Origin: a virus | Strand: one strand, 5' to 3' | IMG/VR virus record: IMGVR_UViG_3300021964_007119 | Location: 1-64,000 of that record | DNA length: 64,000 nt | In this document: piece by piece, positions 3,001 through 57,397 of the stretch | Position numbering within the stretch: position 1 is the first letter of the stretch | How the letters are laid out: the number at the start of each line of letters is the position of its first letter | The notes under the pieces: generated by a model | Told to the model about the DNA's origin: nothing | The model's database searches: none | What the model saw: the letters and a program-made list of their open reading frames with translations, nothing else | Position numbers and translations under genes: made by a program

Positions 3001-6000
3001 TATATCCCGTGTTAACTCTACCGGTTGAAACGATAACTTGTCCATCTGTGTATGATGAACCTGTTCCTGGTGCTTCACTTATAGATGATGATAATGCTCC
3101 TAGTCCGTGATAGGTACTAGTATCAATTGATTGTGATAGTCTACCCCAAGAACGAGATACGAATAAAAATCCACCTAAATTTTTATCATCATCTGGAAAT
3201 GCTCTTGATGAACTATTTATCCTAACATACTCAGATGAAAATCCTGTTTGTGTTACTTTTTTAATAAGTGCTACTTCTCCGTTTTCAAAACCACTAACAT
3301 TATCTACTGACATTGATGTTGTCGATTTTCCAACTCCAATATCAGAACCACTAATTGTTGTTGAATTCGCTACCCACAATTGTCCACCAACTGCATTTAC
3401 GGTTTCTTTTTCAAATACCGTAGTTCTTAAAGTTCCTCTAATTTTTGCTTCGTGTACTTCTAAAAATCCATCTTTAAATGATGATAATCTAAAACCTCTA
3501 AAGTCTGAAATATAATTTGATGATAAAATATCACCAGATGATGAAATGATTAAATTATTACTACTAATTTTATCACTTCCTAATTCCCAACCACCTATTC
3601 TACCACCACTAAAGAATACATCAGAACCTGATATTCCACCACTTGAACTTAGTATTAATTTATTATCAAAAGATTTTATTTGAGTATTATTTACTGCGAA
3701 ACCACCAATCGATGCTGATACAAATCTTGCATATCCAGCAGTTGTTATTTCTGCTAAAGCATCACCTACAGCTGGCGTTTGTATAGAATTAGCTGAGAAA
3801 GTTCCTTGAACATCAACATCACCTGTAATCGTACCACCAGTAATCAATACATTTGATGCTGTTAAATTTCCGTCTGCACTAACTTGAAATTTGGAAGCTG
3901 ATATAAAGTTATTCTGTTTACCGCCTTGTGTTGGTATTCCTGATGCTGAACCAGATATGTAGAATGAATTAGAACCAGTTGTAAATAAAGCGTTTGAATC
4001 TATATTGAAACTTGCGATAGAACCAGTTGAAAATCTTGCATATCCGTCGGCTAATATTTCTGCTTTAAATGGTGGGCCTCCAACAGGAACTCTAATTTGA
4101 TTTGCTGTTGCAGCATTTACTGTGACACTATCACCAATCACTAATGAACCTGTTATTGTTCCACCAGCTATGTGTATGTTTGAAGCAGAGATATTTCCTT
4201 CTGTATCAAGATAGAATTGAGAAGAACTAATTTCTAAATTACCATTAGAACCACTTATAAATGCTCCATTTGACCCAGACTTTCCAAAAAAGAAATCTTT
4301 TGATTGAACTTTAAATAATGAACCACTAGATTCACCCGTTTCTGTTCTATATTGTAAAAATGAATCATCTCCGTCGTGAAGTTCTAACCCAATACCACGA
4401 TAGTTATCTGAACCAGATAAGTTGGGCAATACTGACCCAGAAAATATCATAAATCCTGAACCAGTTCCGTTTGCTTTCATTGACGCTGACGAGAATCCGT
4501 GATACCCTACTGAACGAATAAATGCTGAATTTGTTCCTCCTATCTCTACACCTTGTCCTATTGTATTTCCTACAAATAATGAACCAGTTAATAAATTATT
4601 ACCACCTTGAATTACTTCGTTTTCTCCTTCAAATTTCACTTTATCTTTAAAAGCAATATAATCTGATTTTTTACCATCTCTGTTTAAAAATTCAAGTCTA
4701 AAATCAAATATATCTGGTTTTACTCTTAATTTTGGCATTGGAGCTACAAATGTGAATTCATCTGGTGAAAAATTAGTATCATTACTTGGAATTAATTCTA
4801 CTCTACCCAAATGTAATTCTCCAGATTCTATTTCTATCTGTAATTTGGTATCATCATTTACAACTACATTTCTTTCAAATGAAGGTCTGAATGGTATTCT
4901 TACAATACTAAAATCTATAAACTCTCCAACTGAATTATTTGATTTTTTTGATTTTAATTCTATAACTTCACCATAATTTTCATCTTCTGTTTTTGTGATT
5001 TTTATCGGGTCACCAAAAGAAGATACAGCATTACCAAGTTTAATACTTGGATTGTTTTGATTAATTTTACTTCCACTAATATAAAATCTTATTTTCGCTC
5101 TAGGTTGTTTTAAAACAGTTCCATCATCTTGAAGAATATCTTTTTCACCTACTTTTAATATTGGTCTTAGTTTTAATTCATAGTCAACATTTGGCCTCAT
5201 TTTTAAATTTGATAATTTTGTTTCAAATACGATAGTCTCGTCCGCTCCACCATTTGAACCAGATATATGAACTCCACCCATCATACTAGGTGTTAATGTG
5301 TCACCAAATGAAATACTACCACTTGTAGAAATACTAGGAACTTTTGACCCTTTTACTCTTCTTTTTAATACCCAATGTTTATTGAGTTGATTTCCACTTT
5401 TAAATACACCTATTTTTTGAGATAATGTTGGTGAACTTCTGTCATTTAAAACATCTGAAGATTCTACCAATCTATCACTTATTAAAGTAAATGGTGTATT
5501 ATTAGTTAAAGCTCTAGTGTATGTTTTTACTCTATGTACATCACCAGAAAATGTTTTCATATTTTTTATGGTGATTTCTGCAAAAGACCTAAATATATTT
5601 ATACTTTCACCAGAACCACTATTTTGTGTTTGACCTGCTGGTTGAAAATCTATTTCATATGAAGTTGATTCATATGGAACTTTAAATTTTGTTCCATAGT
5701 CTTTTTCTCTTCTACTTTCAATTGTAAATGGTCTATCAATTTCCAATAAATCTGGACTATGAACGGCTACAATAGAAGCTGTTAATGATGAACTTATAAA
5801 ACTCTGTCCAGCTACATTACTAATTCTTTCCAAATTAACTTTTGGTTCTGCTCTAAATATACCACCTGCAAACTCACTTCTAAATGAATTAGAACCACTC
5901 GCATAAATTAGTGTTCCTTTTCCTGTCCAATTAGGGTCTGGAATACTTGGTGGTAGGACTACCACCGTGTCGTCTTTTATGGGTGGATATTCATCATCAA

Positions 6001-20081: not shown

Positions 20082-21863
20082 TTATTTTTTTCTTAAACTA
20101 TGTTTCCATTTTCCTCTCCACTCTCGTCTAGCCCATCTTTCAGCTGCTATTTCAAATGGGTTGTTGTCGTGGAAATCTTTACCCTTATCTTCTTGTTCTT
20201 GTCCAGCTTGTGTATACATTCTTACAAACTTTTTACGACCATATTTTTTACTATCCATAGCGTGATAAATTTCGTGTAACAAAGTTATCATAAAATCTTG
20301 AACACTTTTATAAAAAGGTCTTAACTTTATAATATCTCTGTCAAAATCATAATCACCTTTTGTTGCTCGTGGACTAAATTCTAATTTTGAATTAACTCTG
20401 TATTTATTCATTATTTTTTTAGCTATTTGTTGAAAGTCTATTCTTTCTAATAATAAAGTTGTTCCGTCTTTTAATGTATATGTTTCTAACATTTTTTGTT
20501 TTCTTACCCAAGACTTACCTCTCGGATTTTTTATTGGTCTTTTGATAAATTTAGATATTCCTTTTTTAACCAACATATTAAATCGTTTTTGTGCTTGTTT
20601 TGGTGAAAGGTCTTTGTTGTTATCAATGATTATAAAGTTATTACCACCAAACAATCCTTGAAATCCACCAATATTTTTTATAACTTCTCTGTGTGAATCA
20701 ACAACTATTTTTTCCGGTAGAACTCTGTCACGATTTTTATTTCTTTTAAGTGCTACTTCTAATGTAGTGTTGACAAATACCATATAACAATCATATCCTT
20801 TTTCCTCTAATTCTTTTTTCTCTTTTGATATTTTTGCATAATCATCACCGGTTCCGTCAATAATCATACCGAGTCTTCCGTTTTGATATAATTTTTTTCT
20901 CACACCGGTTAATTCTTTAGCATAACTTCTCAATCCACTTGCGTCTGGTCCATCACCTGTTAGATTGTCAAATACTTCGTCTGGTAATGCGTCTAAGTTA
21001 GTTCCGAACCCGTATTTTTTTAATAAGAACTTTAACTCTTTATCTGTGTTGACCATTTTCATACCGGTCTGAGATACATTAACTCTTTCTGGTATTCCAA
21101 ATAAACCTTTTGCTACCCAAGTTTTACCACTTCCAGGCCCACCTGCTAAGAAAACTGCTTTTAAAATACCTGGGTCATTGATACCTTCTTTTAAAATCAT
21201 TGTTTCACCATTTTTGGTAAGTATGTTTTCCATATGTTTATAATATTCTTTTTCAAATCCCAACTCAACAAAAGCTGTATAACCTTTTGGCCCTTGTCTA
21301 CCTGATGCTTGTGAAGCTTCTTTTAATGGTAATCTAAATGTTACAACTTTTCTACCATTGATTGTTGGCATTCCGTGTTCATCTTTACCAATAGATTTGA
21401 CTACGGTTTTTTTATTTTTAAATCTACCAGTTAAAATAGTATCTCCAATCTTTACTGGTATATTTACATCTTCTCTAATACTACGATTTAATTTTCCGTG
21501 AATTCTTTTCATTTTTTTTCTTTGTGCTAAACTTGTAGGTATCCAATCTGGTCCAAAAGTATAATCCTTGTTTTCTTTTGTTTTCTTTTTCATCTTGTTG
21601 ATATAAGAACGATAAACCGCGGCTTGAGATGATTTACCCATTTCTTTTGCTCGTTGTTCCATTGCTACAGCGGCTTGAATTTTGTGTGCGTGAGATTTAC
21701 CACTACCCTTGATTTTACTTACTGAAGATTTAGCATCTTTAACAGTTGCAAACTTTAAACCTTTGATTGTTCCTTTTGGATTTTCATCTGTGTATAAATC
21801 TGAATGAGATGAAGAACCTCTATGTTGTCCTTTTTTTCTTGGAACTCTTGGTGTTTCGTTCAT
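20082..21863 (-). CDS. Multidomain protein: P-loop kinase (zeta-toxin-like) plus zincin metallopeptidase
   Basis: 593 residues in at least three parts. Residues 1-100 are basic and repetitive (KIKGSGKSHAHKIQAAVAM). About 130-210 contains a small beta domain (VKIGDTILTGRFKNKK). From 240 there is a kinase fold with Walker A GGPGSGKT, an MVNTDKELK segment and a basic lid, like zeta toxin or polynucleotide kinases. The C-terminus carries HEIYH (HExxH) near 535, followed by NPFEIAAERWARREW, which could supply the third zinc ligand. It sits behind the tail genes, so it may be a packaged virion protein. Substrates unknown. Confidence 0.75.
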   Translation of the reverse strand: MNETPRVPRKKGQHRGSSSHSDLYTDENPKGTIKGLKFATVKDAKSSVSKIKGSGKSHAHKIQAAVAMEQRAKEMGKSSQAAVYRSYINKMKKKTKENKDYTFGPDWIPTSLAQRKKMKRIHGKLNRSIREDVNIPVKIGDTILTGRFKNKKTVVKSIGKDEHGMPTINGRKVVTFRLPLKEASQASGRQGPKGYTAFVELGFEKEYYKHMENILTKNGETMILKEGINDPGILKAVFLAGGPGSGKTWVAKGLFGIPERVNVSQTGMKMVNTDKELKFLLKKYGFGTNLDALPDEVFDNLTGDGPDASGLRSYAKELTGVRKKLYQNGRLGMIIDGTGDDYAKISKEKKELEEKGYDCYMVFVNTTLEVALKRNKNRDRVLPEKIVVDSHREVIKNIGGFQGLFGGNNFIIIDNNKDLSPKQAQKRFNMLVKKGISKFIKRPIKNPRGKSWVRKQKMLETYTLKDGTTLLLERIDFQQIAKKIMNKYRVNSKLEFSPRATKGDYDFDRDIIKLRPFYKSVQDFMITLLHEIYHAMDSKKYGRKKFVRMYTQAGQEQEDKGKDFHDNNPFEIAAERWARREWRGKWKHSLRKK

Positions 21864-46764: not shown

Positions 46765-46803
46765 AATATACAAAATTAATTGTCGTATGTCAAGAGTTTT
46801 TTA
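46765..46803 (-). promoter_or_regulatory. Early-type promoter of tRNA-Lys and the following genes
   Basis: AAAAAACTC, TTGACA (46788-46793), 17-bp spacer, TATATT (46765-46770). Begins at the stop codon of the 600-residue gene. Confidence 0.87.
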
Positions 46804-51778: not shown

Positions 51779-51787
51779 ACTCTCTCC

Positions 51788-52054
51788 TTATACTTTCCAA
51801 AAATCTTCTTCTTTATATGTGTTGGTAAATGAACCTTCTCCGTGTACTTCTTCAGCACCTTCGGTTGAACTATAATAGTTAACAACAGCTCCTTTAATAT
51901 CAACAACCTTACCTTCTTCTTTTGGATTGAAGTTTCTATTACTTGGTGGAATCTTTATGTGGATATGTTCCACTTGTCCTACTCTTCCAGTATCTGAACA
52001 CTTCTTTCGTAGTCCTTCTAAATTAATTCCTTGATTTCTTCTTCTTCTTGGCAT
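51788..52054 (-). CDS. Small hypothetical protein
   Basis: 88 residues, MPRRRRNQGINLEGLRKKCS start, then IHIKIPPSNRNFNPKEEGKV. No family recognised. Overlaps the HNH gene end by 32 nt, which is unusually long. Confidence 0.6.
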   Translation of the reverse strand: MPRRRRNQGINLEGLRKKCSDTGRVGQVEHIHIKIPPSNRNFNPKEEGKVVDIKGAVVNYYSSTEGAEEVHGEGSFTNTYKEEDFWKV

Positions 52055-52520
52055 TTTTGCTCCTCGTTTTTAGTTTTACTTCTGAAGTTGTCTTTTCTCT
52101 ATGACACTTCTTACATAGTGTTTGTAAATTTTCTAATTTATAATAATTCCAATCTAAATCTTTTTCTTTTACACCCTTTTGTTCTACCAATGGTTTGATG
52201 TGGTCTGCTTCCCAATGTAAATCAAAGTATCCACATTTTTTACAAATACCTTCATCACGATTCCATAGTTGAGCTCGTTGTTCTCCACTATGATAGATTA
52301 ATAAGTATTCAGTTGCACAATCTTCGTGCCAACTTTTACGGGTGTTAATCGTATCTTCTTTCTCATTCAATATAACATTACCACACCACCTACAATTACC
52401 TTTGGTCTTGGTATAGTAATGTTTTGGTTTTGGTGGTTTACGGAAATCTCCGTTCCACTTCTCTTTTTTCTTTTTTCCAAATGTCTTCTCGTGTCGTGAA
52501 CTCCACCTACTTAACGGCAC
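52023..52520 (-). CDS. HNH endonuclease
   Basis: 165 residues from GTG at 52520 (AAAGGAG five bases upstream). Four-Cys zinc frame: CRWCGN near 43, CKKCGYFDLHWEADHIKPLV with the catalytic DH near 109, and NLQTLCKKCHREKT near 140. The last 25 residues are Lys-rich. Free-standing HNH nucleases in T4-like phages are usually homing or host-DNA nicking enzymes. Confidence 0.9.
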   Translation of the reverse strand: MPLSRWSSRHEKTFGKKKKEKWNGDFRKPPKPKHYYTKTKGNCRWCGNVILNEKEDTINTRKSWHEDCATEYLLIYHSGEQRAQLWNRDEGICKKCGYFDLHWEADHIKPLVEQKGVKEKDLDWNYYKLENLQTLCKKCHREKTTSEVKLKTRSKNAKKKKKSRN

Positions 52521-53826: not shown

Positions 53827-54015
53827 TTATCCTATTCCTATTTGAAATCCTAATTCTTCTGCGTTTTCTTTAAACTCCCATATACCTTGAACTAAGCCCT
53901 CTACTTCTTTATCGGACTTTTCCCAGAATTTGGGGTCGTGAAAGTCTTTTTGTATATCTTTCATTACTTGTTTCATCATATGTTGTAATTCTTTATCGTC
54001 TATATTACTTCTCAT
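53827..54015 (-). CDS. Small hypothetical protein
   Basis: 62 residues, helical and acidic (DDKELQHMMKQVMKDIQKDF). The frame stays open 18 codons before the ATG and reads HEAWYITGKYKGKEAP, which looks coding but has no ATG, GTG or TTG. The true N-terminus may be longer or the gene may be truncated. Confidence 0.6.
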   Translation of the reverse strand: MRSNIDDKELQHMMKQVMKDIQKDFHDPKFWEKSDKEVEGLVQGIWEFKENAEELGFQIGIG

Positions 54016-54171
54016 AGTAGGAGCTTCTTTACCTTTATACTTACCCGTGATATACCAAGCCTCGTGGATTTACGATATTAACACCACGAGAACTTGACGA
54101 ACCTATTTGTTTATAATGTTTTCTTAGAACATTTATGTAAATCACTTATCCTTTTGTTAATAAAATTTTTG

Positions 54172-54368
54172 AGGGTGTTGTAGGATTCGAACCTACACGC
54201 TCCAATACTAACTCGTTACTTAGGTGAATATCACTATGGGTTCTCACACCCTACTTATCTAGATTCAGTATCACCGACCTTCGTCTTATTCTCGTCAGTC
54301 CCCTATTGGACTCGCACCGATTTTCATAACTCGTGTTCTTGACGACAAAACCAATCGTCATAACACCC
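54172..54368 (-). ncRNA. 197-nt RNA with tRNA-like ends
   Basis: The first and last 7 nt (GGGTGTT and AACACCC) form a perfect acceptor-like stem, and GTAGG-TTCGAAT-CCTAC is a canonical T arm. A D-like hairpin GACGA/TCGTC lies near the 5' end. Between them TCCAATA pairs with TATTGGA (7 bp) and GTGC with GCGT, stacking directly on the T arm as P2 does in tmRNA; ACTGAC/GTCGGT and GGGT/ACCC hairpins fill the middle. It lacks an anticodon arm, the G3-U70 pair and a recognisable tag. About 110 nt too long for a tRNA. A strong promoter starts it. Identity unknown. Confidence 0.6.
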
Positions 54369-54386
54369 AATTTTCAAATACATCTT

Positions 54387-54425
54387 AACTTACTACAATT
54401 ACCCGTAAAAGTCAAGAGCTTTTTT
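54387..54425 (-). promoter_or_regulatory. Early-type promoter of the tRNA-ended RNA
   Basis: AAAAAAAGCTC, TTGACT (54410-54415), 17-bp spacer, TAAGTT (54387-54392). Transcription should start about 10 nt before the RNA's acceptor stem. Confidence 0.83.
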
Positions 54426-54429
54426 TAAA

Positions 54430-54846
54430 TTATTTCGGATAGATAGCAAAGGTATCAGCATACTCAGCCAGACAATGCCCTTGAGCTCTCTCGTATCCGT
54501 ATTGTTCTTTACTACAACCTCTATACTTAATTCTATAATTCCCCGTTTTCATCATATTCCTAATCGTAGGATTATACCTAACTCTCATAGGAATACCTTT
54601 GTACAACGCTTGTTCAAAATAACCAGCTTCATATTGTTCCAACCTAATTGCTGGTTGATTCTGATTTAATCTATACAACTCCATAGGATTATGAGCATAT
54701 CTATAACTCGTTATCTCGTGAGTTCCGTTCTCAACATACTCTCCTTTATCATTATAATAACCATAAAAATTTTGAATATATCGTGTACATAGTGTATCTT
54801 CATAATTCCTCATAGGAATACCAAAAGTATCAGTTTGAATTTCCAT
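54430..54846 (-). CDS. Hypothetical protein
   Basis: 138 residues, Tyr/Asn/Arg-rich (RNYEDTLCTRYIQNFYGYYN), no family recognised. The segment GIPMR occurs near residues 9 and 87, perhaps an old internal duplication. ATG at 54846 is favoured by GAGG; an ATG at 54873, 5 nt after the -10, would add 9 residues in a leaderless form. Confidence 0.72.
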   Translation of the reverse strand: MEIQTDTFGIPMRNYEDTLCTRYIQNFYGYYNDKGEYVENGTHEITSYRYAHNPMELYRLNQNQPAIRLEQYEAGYFEQALYKGIPMRVRYNPTIRNMMKTGNYRIKYRGCSKEQYGYERAQGHCLAEYADTFAIYPK

Positions 54847-54878
54847 ATTTTCCTCGTTGTTTTGTTCTATCATACTCT

Positions 54879-56932: not shown

Positions 56933-56952
56933 AAAAGTCGTTAGACTTTTTT
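56933..56952 (+). terminator. Possible plus-strand terminator
   Basis: AAAAGTC-GTTA-GACTTTT then TT, a 7-bp stem. It overlaps the stop codon of the minus-strand gene at 56941, so it may also protect that mRNA's 3' end. Confidence 0.45.
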
Positions 56953-57081
56953 GGATTGGGATTTGAGTATTTTCGTTGTTCCTTTGGTATGTTTCGGGTC
57001 GTAAGGGCACATTTTACAACCACTCCCGCAACAATAACCACGAGCCAAGTGTTTCTCTCTTGACATTACTTTCTTTTTCAT
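56941..57081 (-). CDS. DUF5522-like cysteine-rich small protein
   Basis: 46 residues. HLARGYCCGSGCKMCPYDP contains the CCGSGCxxCPY signature of DUF5522. Bacterial members are short and uncharacterised; the four cysteines suggest metal binding. Starts 8 nt after the stop of the gene upstream. Confidence 0.7.
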   Translation of the reverse strand: MKKKVMSREKHLARGYCCGSGCKMCPYDPKHTKGTTKILKSQSKKV

Positions 57082-57088
57082 TTTGATT

Positions 57089-57397
57089 TTAGTTTGAGAA
57101 CATATCCCAGAACATATCACCTATTAATGCGATTAAACCACCACCAATTATAGTTCTCCACATAGTTGTGTTTTCTCTAAATTGTGTGTTTTGTTTGGTT
57201 TCCGCCCATAGGCCTTCATTGGGATTGAATAGATTTTCTTTGATAAATGAAATATCTTGGTGTATTTCATCAAATTTTGATGTGAAATGTTTTTCCAACT
57301 TTTGAACTGATTTATCTTGTTCGTTTAGTCGGTATAGTATTAATTCTAAATCTTGTTTGTCTTGTTTATTCATAGGTTTTTTTAATCCTTTTTTCAT
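57089..57397 (-). CDS. Membrane-anchored coiled-coil protein
   Basis: 102 residues. Helical N-terminal two thirds (LELILYRLNEQDKSVQKLEK) and a C-terminal membrane helix (IIGGGLIALIGDMFWDMF). The layout recalls phage proteins of the hemolysin-XhlA type. ATATTTAT lies 7 nt before its ATG. Confidence 0.75.
   Translation of the reverse strand: MKKGLKKPMNKQDKQDLELILYRLNEQDKSVQKLEKHFTSKFDEIHQDISFIKENLFNPNEGLWAETKQNTQFRENTTMWRTIIGGGLIALIGDMFWDMFSN

Follow-up and report, generated by a model that had tools for sequence, protein, structure and literature searches.

A candidate tag-less, tmRNA-like RNA in a marine relative of flavobacterial viruses

The window analysed here comprises bases 1-64000 of an 82,179-base IMG/VR virus record (IMGVR_UViG_3300021964_007119). 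An intergenic segment of its minus strand reads GGGTGTT ATGACGATTGGTTTTGTCGTCA ... TATTGGAGCGTGTAGGTTCGAATCCTACAACACCCT from 54368 to 54172, lies 2.6 kb upstream of a tRNA-Ala-Glu-Thr gene group, and combines the two ends of a tRNA with a large insert. Here we describe this 197-nt RNA and weigh the possibility that it is a tag-less molecule resembling transfer-messenger RNA (tmRNA). The baseplate wedge protein of the window shows 38-47% identity to homologues in Flavobacterium phage immuto and Microcystis phage Mel-JY01. The phage is kin to viruses of marine flavobacteria, and its host may be a flavobacterium or another bacteroidete.

An earlier, sequence-only reading of the window had described an acceptor stem of 7 perfect pairs together with a canonical T arm, and both hold up (Table 1). 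The 64 kb contain three perfect T arms, namely this one and those of two ARAGORN-called tRNAs (tRNA-Cys and tRNA-Lys). For this one, the sole 7-bp acceptor partner in the preceding 400 nt sits 172 nt away, compared to 47-49 nt in tRNA-Cys and tRNA-Lys. Directly after the 5' acceptor strand, where a tRNA has its D arm, comes a D-arm-like hairpin, which the sequence-only reading had not mentioned. The RNA thus has a 7-bp acceptor, a D arm with GG and a T arm of the TTCRANY form, as a tRNA does. Position 8 is A, so U8 is absent, and no cloverleaf with a 7-nt anticodon loop and U33 is found. An encoded CCA is also absent from this phage's own tRNAs.

To gauge how readily such an arrangement arises, we subjected the 405 nt that precede the T stem to 20,000 dinucleotide shuffles. 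Of these, 2.7% contain an acceptor partner and 0.045% an acceptor together with a D hairpin. The helix resembling P2 of tmRNA appears in 3.1%, and acceptor and P2 jointly in 0.065%. By a hand estimate, ∼0.03 T arms of such quality are expected per window. These rates indicate that the tRNA-like ends are real, while P2 alone is not secure; the tRNA-like succession of acceptor, D hairpin and T arm is well beyond chance. The long-range TCCAATA/TATTGGA helix had been put forward as a tmRNA-like feature. It is indeed part of the minimum free energy (MFE) structure, but it is weaker than claimed, with a pair probability of 0.16 in unconstrained folding and 0.39 with acceptor and T arm as constraints. 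Under the latter constraint a local AGUCC/GGACU hairpin competes with it (probability 0.6). The unconstrained folding energy of the whole RNA corresponds to z = -1.72.

A promoter motif lies just upstream. It belongs to a family, AAAGCTCTTGAC[A/T]-N17-TATATT, for which 12 minus-strand sites were aligned, near matches included; the spacer is invariably 17 nt and the -10 mostly TATATT. Sites resembling the -35 at up to two mismatches number 24, versus 4.9 expected. A site of the family likewise precedes tRNA-Lys (promoter at 46793), leaving a leader of 12 nt. Ahead of the RNA, the phage -35 is perfect (AAAGCTCTTGACT) and the gap from -10 to acceptor is 18 nt. The RNA had been credited with a strong promoter of its own. 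The -35 and the 17-nt spacing bear this out, but the -10 is weak and the promoter is not among the sites listed by a generic sigma-70 scan. A GTG open reading frame (ORF) begins at 54145, 27 nt downstream of the RNA. Given the promoter just upstream, the weak -10 and the lack of a detectable terminator, a discrete, stable transcript is plausible.

Is this simply a tRNA gene that programs overlook? ARAGORN does not call the RNA as a tRNA, with or without introns (allowed up to 3 kb), or as a tmRNA in its -m mode, in line with the anticodon-less structure described earlier. The covariance searches proposed in the sequence-only reading gave nothing positive: the tRNA model RF00005 scores the RNA below threshold, the tmRNA model RF00023 does not match it, and a single-sequence covariance model found no convincing relative. 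Among the relevant Rfam families at E up to 10, the sole alignment is to tRNA-Sec (16.5 bits against a threshold of 47), covering the 3' 81 nt. The tRNA parts of the RNA, compared with 144 tRNAs, are no closer to any of them than different isotypes are to one another. Origin from the phage's tRNA-Cys was considered and rejected; the two are 79% identical in a gapped global alignment, but the separate halves do not exceed the cross-isotype background.

A tRNA interrupted by a group I intron was likewise rejected. The insert (∼125 nt by this reckoning) is too short, as the sequence-only reading had argued, hand inspection finds no room for P8, and group I models (RF00028, Intron_gpI) give no match at E up to 10. 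The GACGAGAATAAGA stretch resembles the S element of the trnL intron; the group I test that it prompted came out negative. A further lead, via the 15-mer CTGACGAGAATAAGA, yielded 67 IMG/VR loci, none with a T arm downstream and none resembling the RNA.

We then turned to related phages, which were gathered through the baseplate gene and its flanking genes (80 sampled of at least 597 baseplate matches). Seven related IMG/VR records contain a tmRNA, one of them partial. ARAGORN calls those of G053 and G065 only, with tags EYDYSVELPIGDSQPSYAYAA and GNDQPTYAYAA. In two records the tmRNA shares its strand with tRNA-Ala-Glu-Thr and lies ∼5.1 kb (G076) or ∼3.8 kb (G048) upstream of this group, a placement like that of the window RNA. 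The relatives' tmRNAs share with it the acceptor and the T arm around a large insert, closed by P2 in the tmRNAs and perhaps by the P2-like helix in the window RNA, but they are 339-423 nt long, have G3-U70 and carry tags ending in YAYAA or similar. Sequence similarity to the window RNA is not convincing: local alignments to clade tmRNAs compared with shuffles give P values of 0.36, 0.51 and 0.04, not convincingly above shuffles. The phage's own 82-kb record lacks a tmRNA, its best RF00023 hit (33.5 bits) being tRNA-Ala. Most relatives' records are fragments, and hence absence of a tmRNA in a relative carries little weight. Gene content near the tRNAs and tmRNAs varies widely among relatives. 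Among the few correspondences, G053 and G065 encode, ahead of their tmRNA, a stretch of 34-36 residues from the 56941-57120 product, and in G064 the tmRNA is followed by an HNH gene kin to window 52023-52520.

Tag-less forms of tmRNA are known. In mycobacteriophage DS6A, ssrA comprises little beyond the tRNA-like domain, and strong inhibition of tmRNA by a similar molecule is reported, with SmpB titration as a possible mechanism (PMC4131195, citing Mao et al. 2009; PMC11915505). Like the DS6A form, the window RNA comes from a phage, has tRNA-like ends and lacks both an anticodon and a tag frame; it differs in being longer (197 nt) and in going unrecognised by the tmRNA model. A second case comes from LR756508, a 484-kb uncultured phage that is a distant relative and shares the window's baseplate protein family. 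Besides a full tmRNA, this phage has a 112-nt RNA consisting of an acceptor with G3-U70, P2 and a T arm, with no tag and no pseudoknots. It resembles the window RNA in being tag-less and in having acceptor and T arm, with P2 where the window RNA has a possible P2-like helix, but it possesses G3-U70 and the D-loop motif and lacks the 96-nt insert and the D stem. In a tRNA-domain-only tmRNA the domain should be recognisable as tmRNA; RF00023 recognises the LR756508 form and not the window RNA. With canonical phage tRNAs (RF00005), the window RNA has in common the 7-bp acceptor, the D arm with GG, the T arm and, in this phage, the unencoded CCA; it differs in lacking U8 and an anticodon arm and in its length.

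Another stretch in a phage contig, L236:3519-3704 (plus strand), holds a promoter followed by a T arm (GTGGGGTTCGAATCCCCAC) outside any tRNA. Its acceptor-like TCCGTTG/CATCGGA forms 6 of 7 pairs, and it is possibly another tag-less tRNA-like RNA. Aligned to the window RNA and compared with shuffles, it gives P = 0.02 with the T arm and 0.68 without. The same contig has a manA RNA at 4954-5152, plus strand (RF01745, 62.7 bits).

Homologue scans of the RNA covered viral and genome collections, in part by exact patterns. A combined search for T arm and acceptor returned tRNA-Tyr genes only, and a search with the 3' part matched one stretch, a tRNA-Leu in an Acidimicrobiia metagenome-assembled genome. 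The one relative at 99.4% identity stops at window position 51779, before the RNA locus.

For the neighbouring gene at 54430-54873, IMG/VR contains 40 relatives, whereas genome contigs gave none. Where the DNA downstream of these relatives was read, it does not match the window RNA; in most cases it is another structured element followed by a terminator. At most of these loci (L004-L043) a conserved ∼110-nt stretch separates the stop codon of the homologue from the terminator; by eye it looks pseudoknot-like (CTACAT/ATGTAG crossing CGGT/ACCG), and the window has no such stretch at the corresponding position. A 16-nt match to relatives, GGTGTTAATATCGTAA at 54085-54070, was judged likely to be chance. 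On the other side of the RNA (53827-54145, minus strand), the ORF MIYINVLRKHYKQIGSSSSRGVNIVNPRGLVYHG, which starts with the GTG at 54145 and spans 54041-54145, ends at GGG TAA. One frame away, KYKGKEAPTMRSNIDD runs on into 53827-54015, which could reflect a frameshift, a sequencing error or a programmed +1 shift. Farther off, 20082-21863 (minus strand) encodes a 593-aa protein with a Zeta-toxin/AAA P-loop domain, and near the end of record G000, at 81.6-82.0 kb (L226:17581-18042), an ORF resembles, by eye, the C-terminal part of the GroEL chaperonin.

Table 1. Positions of the RNA, its predicted parts and promoter in the window, and of tmRNAs in related phages
Feature	Location	Strand	Remarks
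tRNA-like RNA	54172..54368	minus	197 nt; intergenic; CCA not encoded
Acceptor stem, 5' strand GGGTGTT	54362..54368	minus	pair probability 0.66-1.0
D-arm-like hairpin UGACGAU-UGGUUUU-GUCGUCA	54340..54360	minus	GG in loop; pair probability 0.71-0.87
P2-like helix, 5' strand TCCAATA	54304..54310	minus	part of MFE structure
Insert within P2-like helix	54208..54303	minus	96 nt; predicted hairpins; possible H-type pseudoknot (by eye); no tag-like frame
P2-like helix, 3' strand TATTGGA	54201..54207	minus	part of MFE structure; followed by GCGT, then T stem
T arm GTAGG-TTCGAAT-CCTAC	54180..54196	minus	stem 5/5; canonical TTCGAAT loop
Acceptor stem, 3' strand AACACCC	54173..54179	minus	7/7 Watson-Crick pairs with 54368-54362; U73 at 54172
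Promoter (predicted)	54387..54415	minus	-35 TTGACT 54415-54410; 17-nt spacer; -10 TAAGTT 54392-54387; predicted start ∼54380
Promoter family sites	11080, 13776, 14537, 14681, 40352, 42848, 46793, 48774, 53814, 54415, 54907, 56469	minus	aligned motif
tmRNAs called by ARAGORN	L263:8480-8897, L305:4212-4629		marine phage contigs
tmRNAs missed by ARAGORN	L267:2304-2719, L270:7502-7091, L274:6193-5771, L295:13256-12918, L141:1704-1505 (partial)		marine phage contigs
tmRNAs, covariance model scores	G065, G076, G078, G064, G053, G050		99.6, 93.7, 87.4, 83.4, 83.3 and 83.2 bits, respectively
Partial tmRNA	G048		45.5 bits, slightly below cut-off
Full tmRNA of LR756508.1	92434-92880 (L332:235-681)		
tRNA-domain-only tmRNA of LR756508.1	414804-414915 (L331:505-616)		112 nt; 58.2 bits to RF00023, above cut-off; missed by ARAGORN

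The reading we favour, with somewhat less than even confidence, is that the RNA is tag-less, resembles tmRNA and may act as a decoy in ribosome rescue. We prefer it because the build is tmRNA-like (tRNA ends, a large insert, no anticodon) and because two sister phages have a tmRNA in this neighbourhood. The sequence-only reading had offered a tmRNA derivative among its options, and the bona fide tmRNAs of the clade lend this some weight. A good deal weighs against it, nevertheless. As noted from the outset, the RNA lacks three marks of a tmRNA: the third acceptor pair is G-C rather than G3-U70; in place of the D-loop motif (of the GG-N-UUCGAC kind, with no D stem) there is a stem-loop; and none of the three frames, ending in ..GDTESR*, ..LNLDK* and ..SPIGD*, encodes a tmRNA-like tag with a hydrophobic end. 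With G3-U70 and the D-loop motif absent, alanylation and tmRNA-style SmpB recognition are doubtful. Neither RF00023, at E up to 10, nor a profile built from six clade tmRNAs matches the RNA, and these absences together are why we do not file it as a tmRNA. Exact patterns, BLAST and the single-sequence covariance model found no homologue that could supply evidence of covariation or purifying selection. Record G059, which includes tRNA-Ala and ∼4 kb of upstream sequence, has no tmRNA, and protein-coding synteny around the relatives' tmRNAs is thin. Finally, the -10, TAAGTT, is by eye the most divergent from TATATT among the 12 aligned sites, and no terminator was found 3' of the RNA. Descent from a tmRNA is thus a possibility that sequence alone cannot demonstrate.

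If the tmRNA-like reading is nonetheless right, we infer transcription, processing, tmRNA ancestry and decoy function along the following lines. The RNA would retain the build of the tmRNA tRNA-like domain, with the mRNA part swapped for a short non-coding insert. It would be transcribed from the phage promoter together with downstream genes. Its fold of acceptor, T arm and D arm would let host RNase P cut the 5' end. Maturation of the 3' end would fall to 3' nucleases of the host and the CCA-adding enzyme, as is required for the phage's CCA-less tRNAs. With anticodon and tag absent, the RNA could neither decode nor tag, and might bind SmpB, EF-Tu and the ribosomal A site unproductively. In this way it may dampen host ribosome rescue or a tRNA-directed defence, by analogy with what has been suggested for DS6A ssrA. 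A bolder version, which we regard as rather doubtful, would make it a type of phage RNA not recognised before, in which a non-coding insert between tRNA-like ends replaces the anticodon arm and which occupies the host's ribosome-rescue or tRNA-handling machinery and substitutes for the tmRNA of sister phages.

The main rival, unlikely in our judgement yet deserving of serious consideration, is a decaying tRNA or tmRNA gene whose middle part was lost or exchanged and which is functionless now. Such decay would suit an orphan sequence with a weak -10, next to an ORF that looks frameshifted (54041-54145, then 53827-54015), in a region whose gene content differs so widely among relatives. However, the acceptor (7/7), the T arm (5/5) and the D hairpin are all intact in their pairing, which is unlikely under decay, and a promoter motif stands just upstream. 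A chance arrangement, or a part of the downstream ORF's leader, with no separate RNA product, might be suspected from the modest folding z (only -1.7), the missing terminator and the nearby GTG start, but the T arm alone is expected ∼0.03 times per window (our own estimate) and acceptor plus D hairpin add 0.00045, making this explanation highly improbable.

Two further alternatives were considered. The RNA could represent a new tRNA-mimic class unrelated to tmRNA, for instance one that tRNA-directed defences take as bait, or one whose tRNA-like end stabilises a transcript or helps in its processing. Its tRNA-like termini and D arm around a 96-nt insert of other predicted structure would fit, as would the unconvincing similarity to tmRNA; yet homologues were not found, an RNA without an anticodon loop would be poor bait for anticodon nucleases, and many phages of the clade carry tmRNAs, so that we consider this idea improbable. 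Quite improbable, too, is that the anticodon arm of a tRNA gene harbours a small intron (not of group I) or an insertion, ∼125 nt long, whose removal gives a working tRNA. On reading the sequence, removal of ∼125 nt would leave acceptor, a 4-bp D arm with GG loop, a 5-nt variable loop and T arm properly spaced, and in silico deletions gave 56 ARAGORN calls at normal threshold out of 1302, a count without shuffled control. Against this, ARAGORN finds nothing with introns of up to 3 kb, position 8 is A, none of the placements tried provides U33, Rfam shows no group I match, and the tRNA parts are no nearer to any tRNA than cross-isotype distances.

Should the tag-less tmRNA-like RNA prove to be a decoy, it would mean that a marine phage akin to those of flavobacteria controls host trans-translation at the RNA level. 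With full tmRNAs in some members, this tag-less RNA and, in a distant relative, a form reduced to the tRNA domain, the clade would allow a direct test of whether phages supply ribosome rescue or block it.
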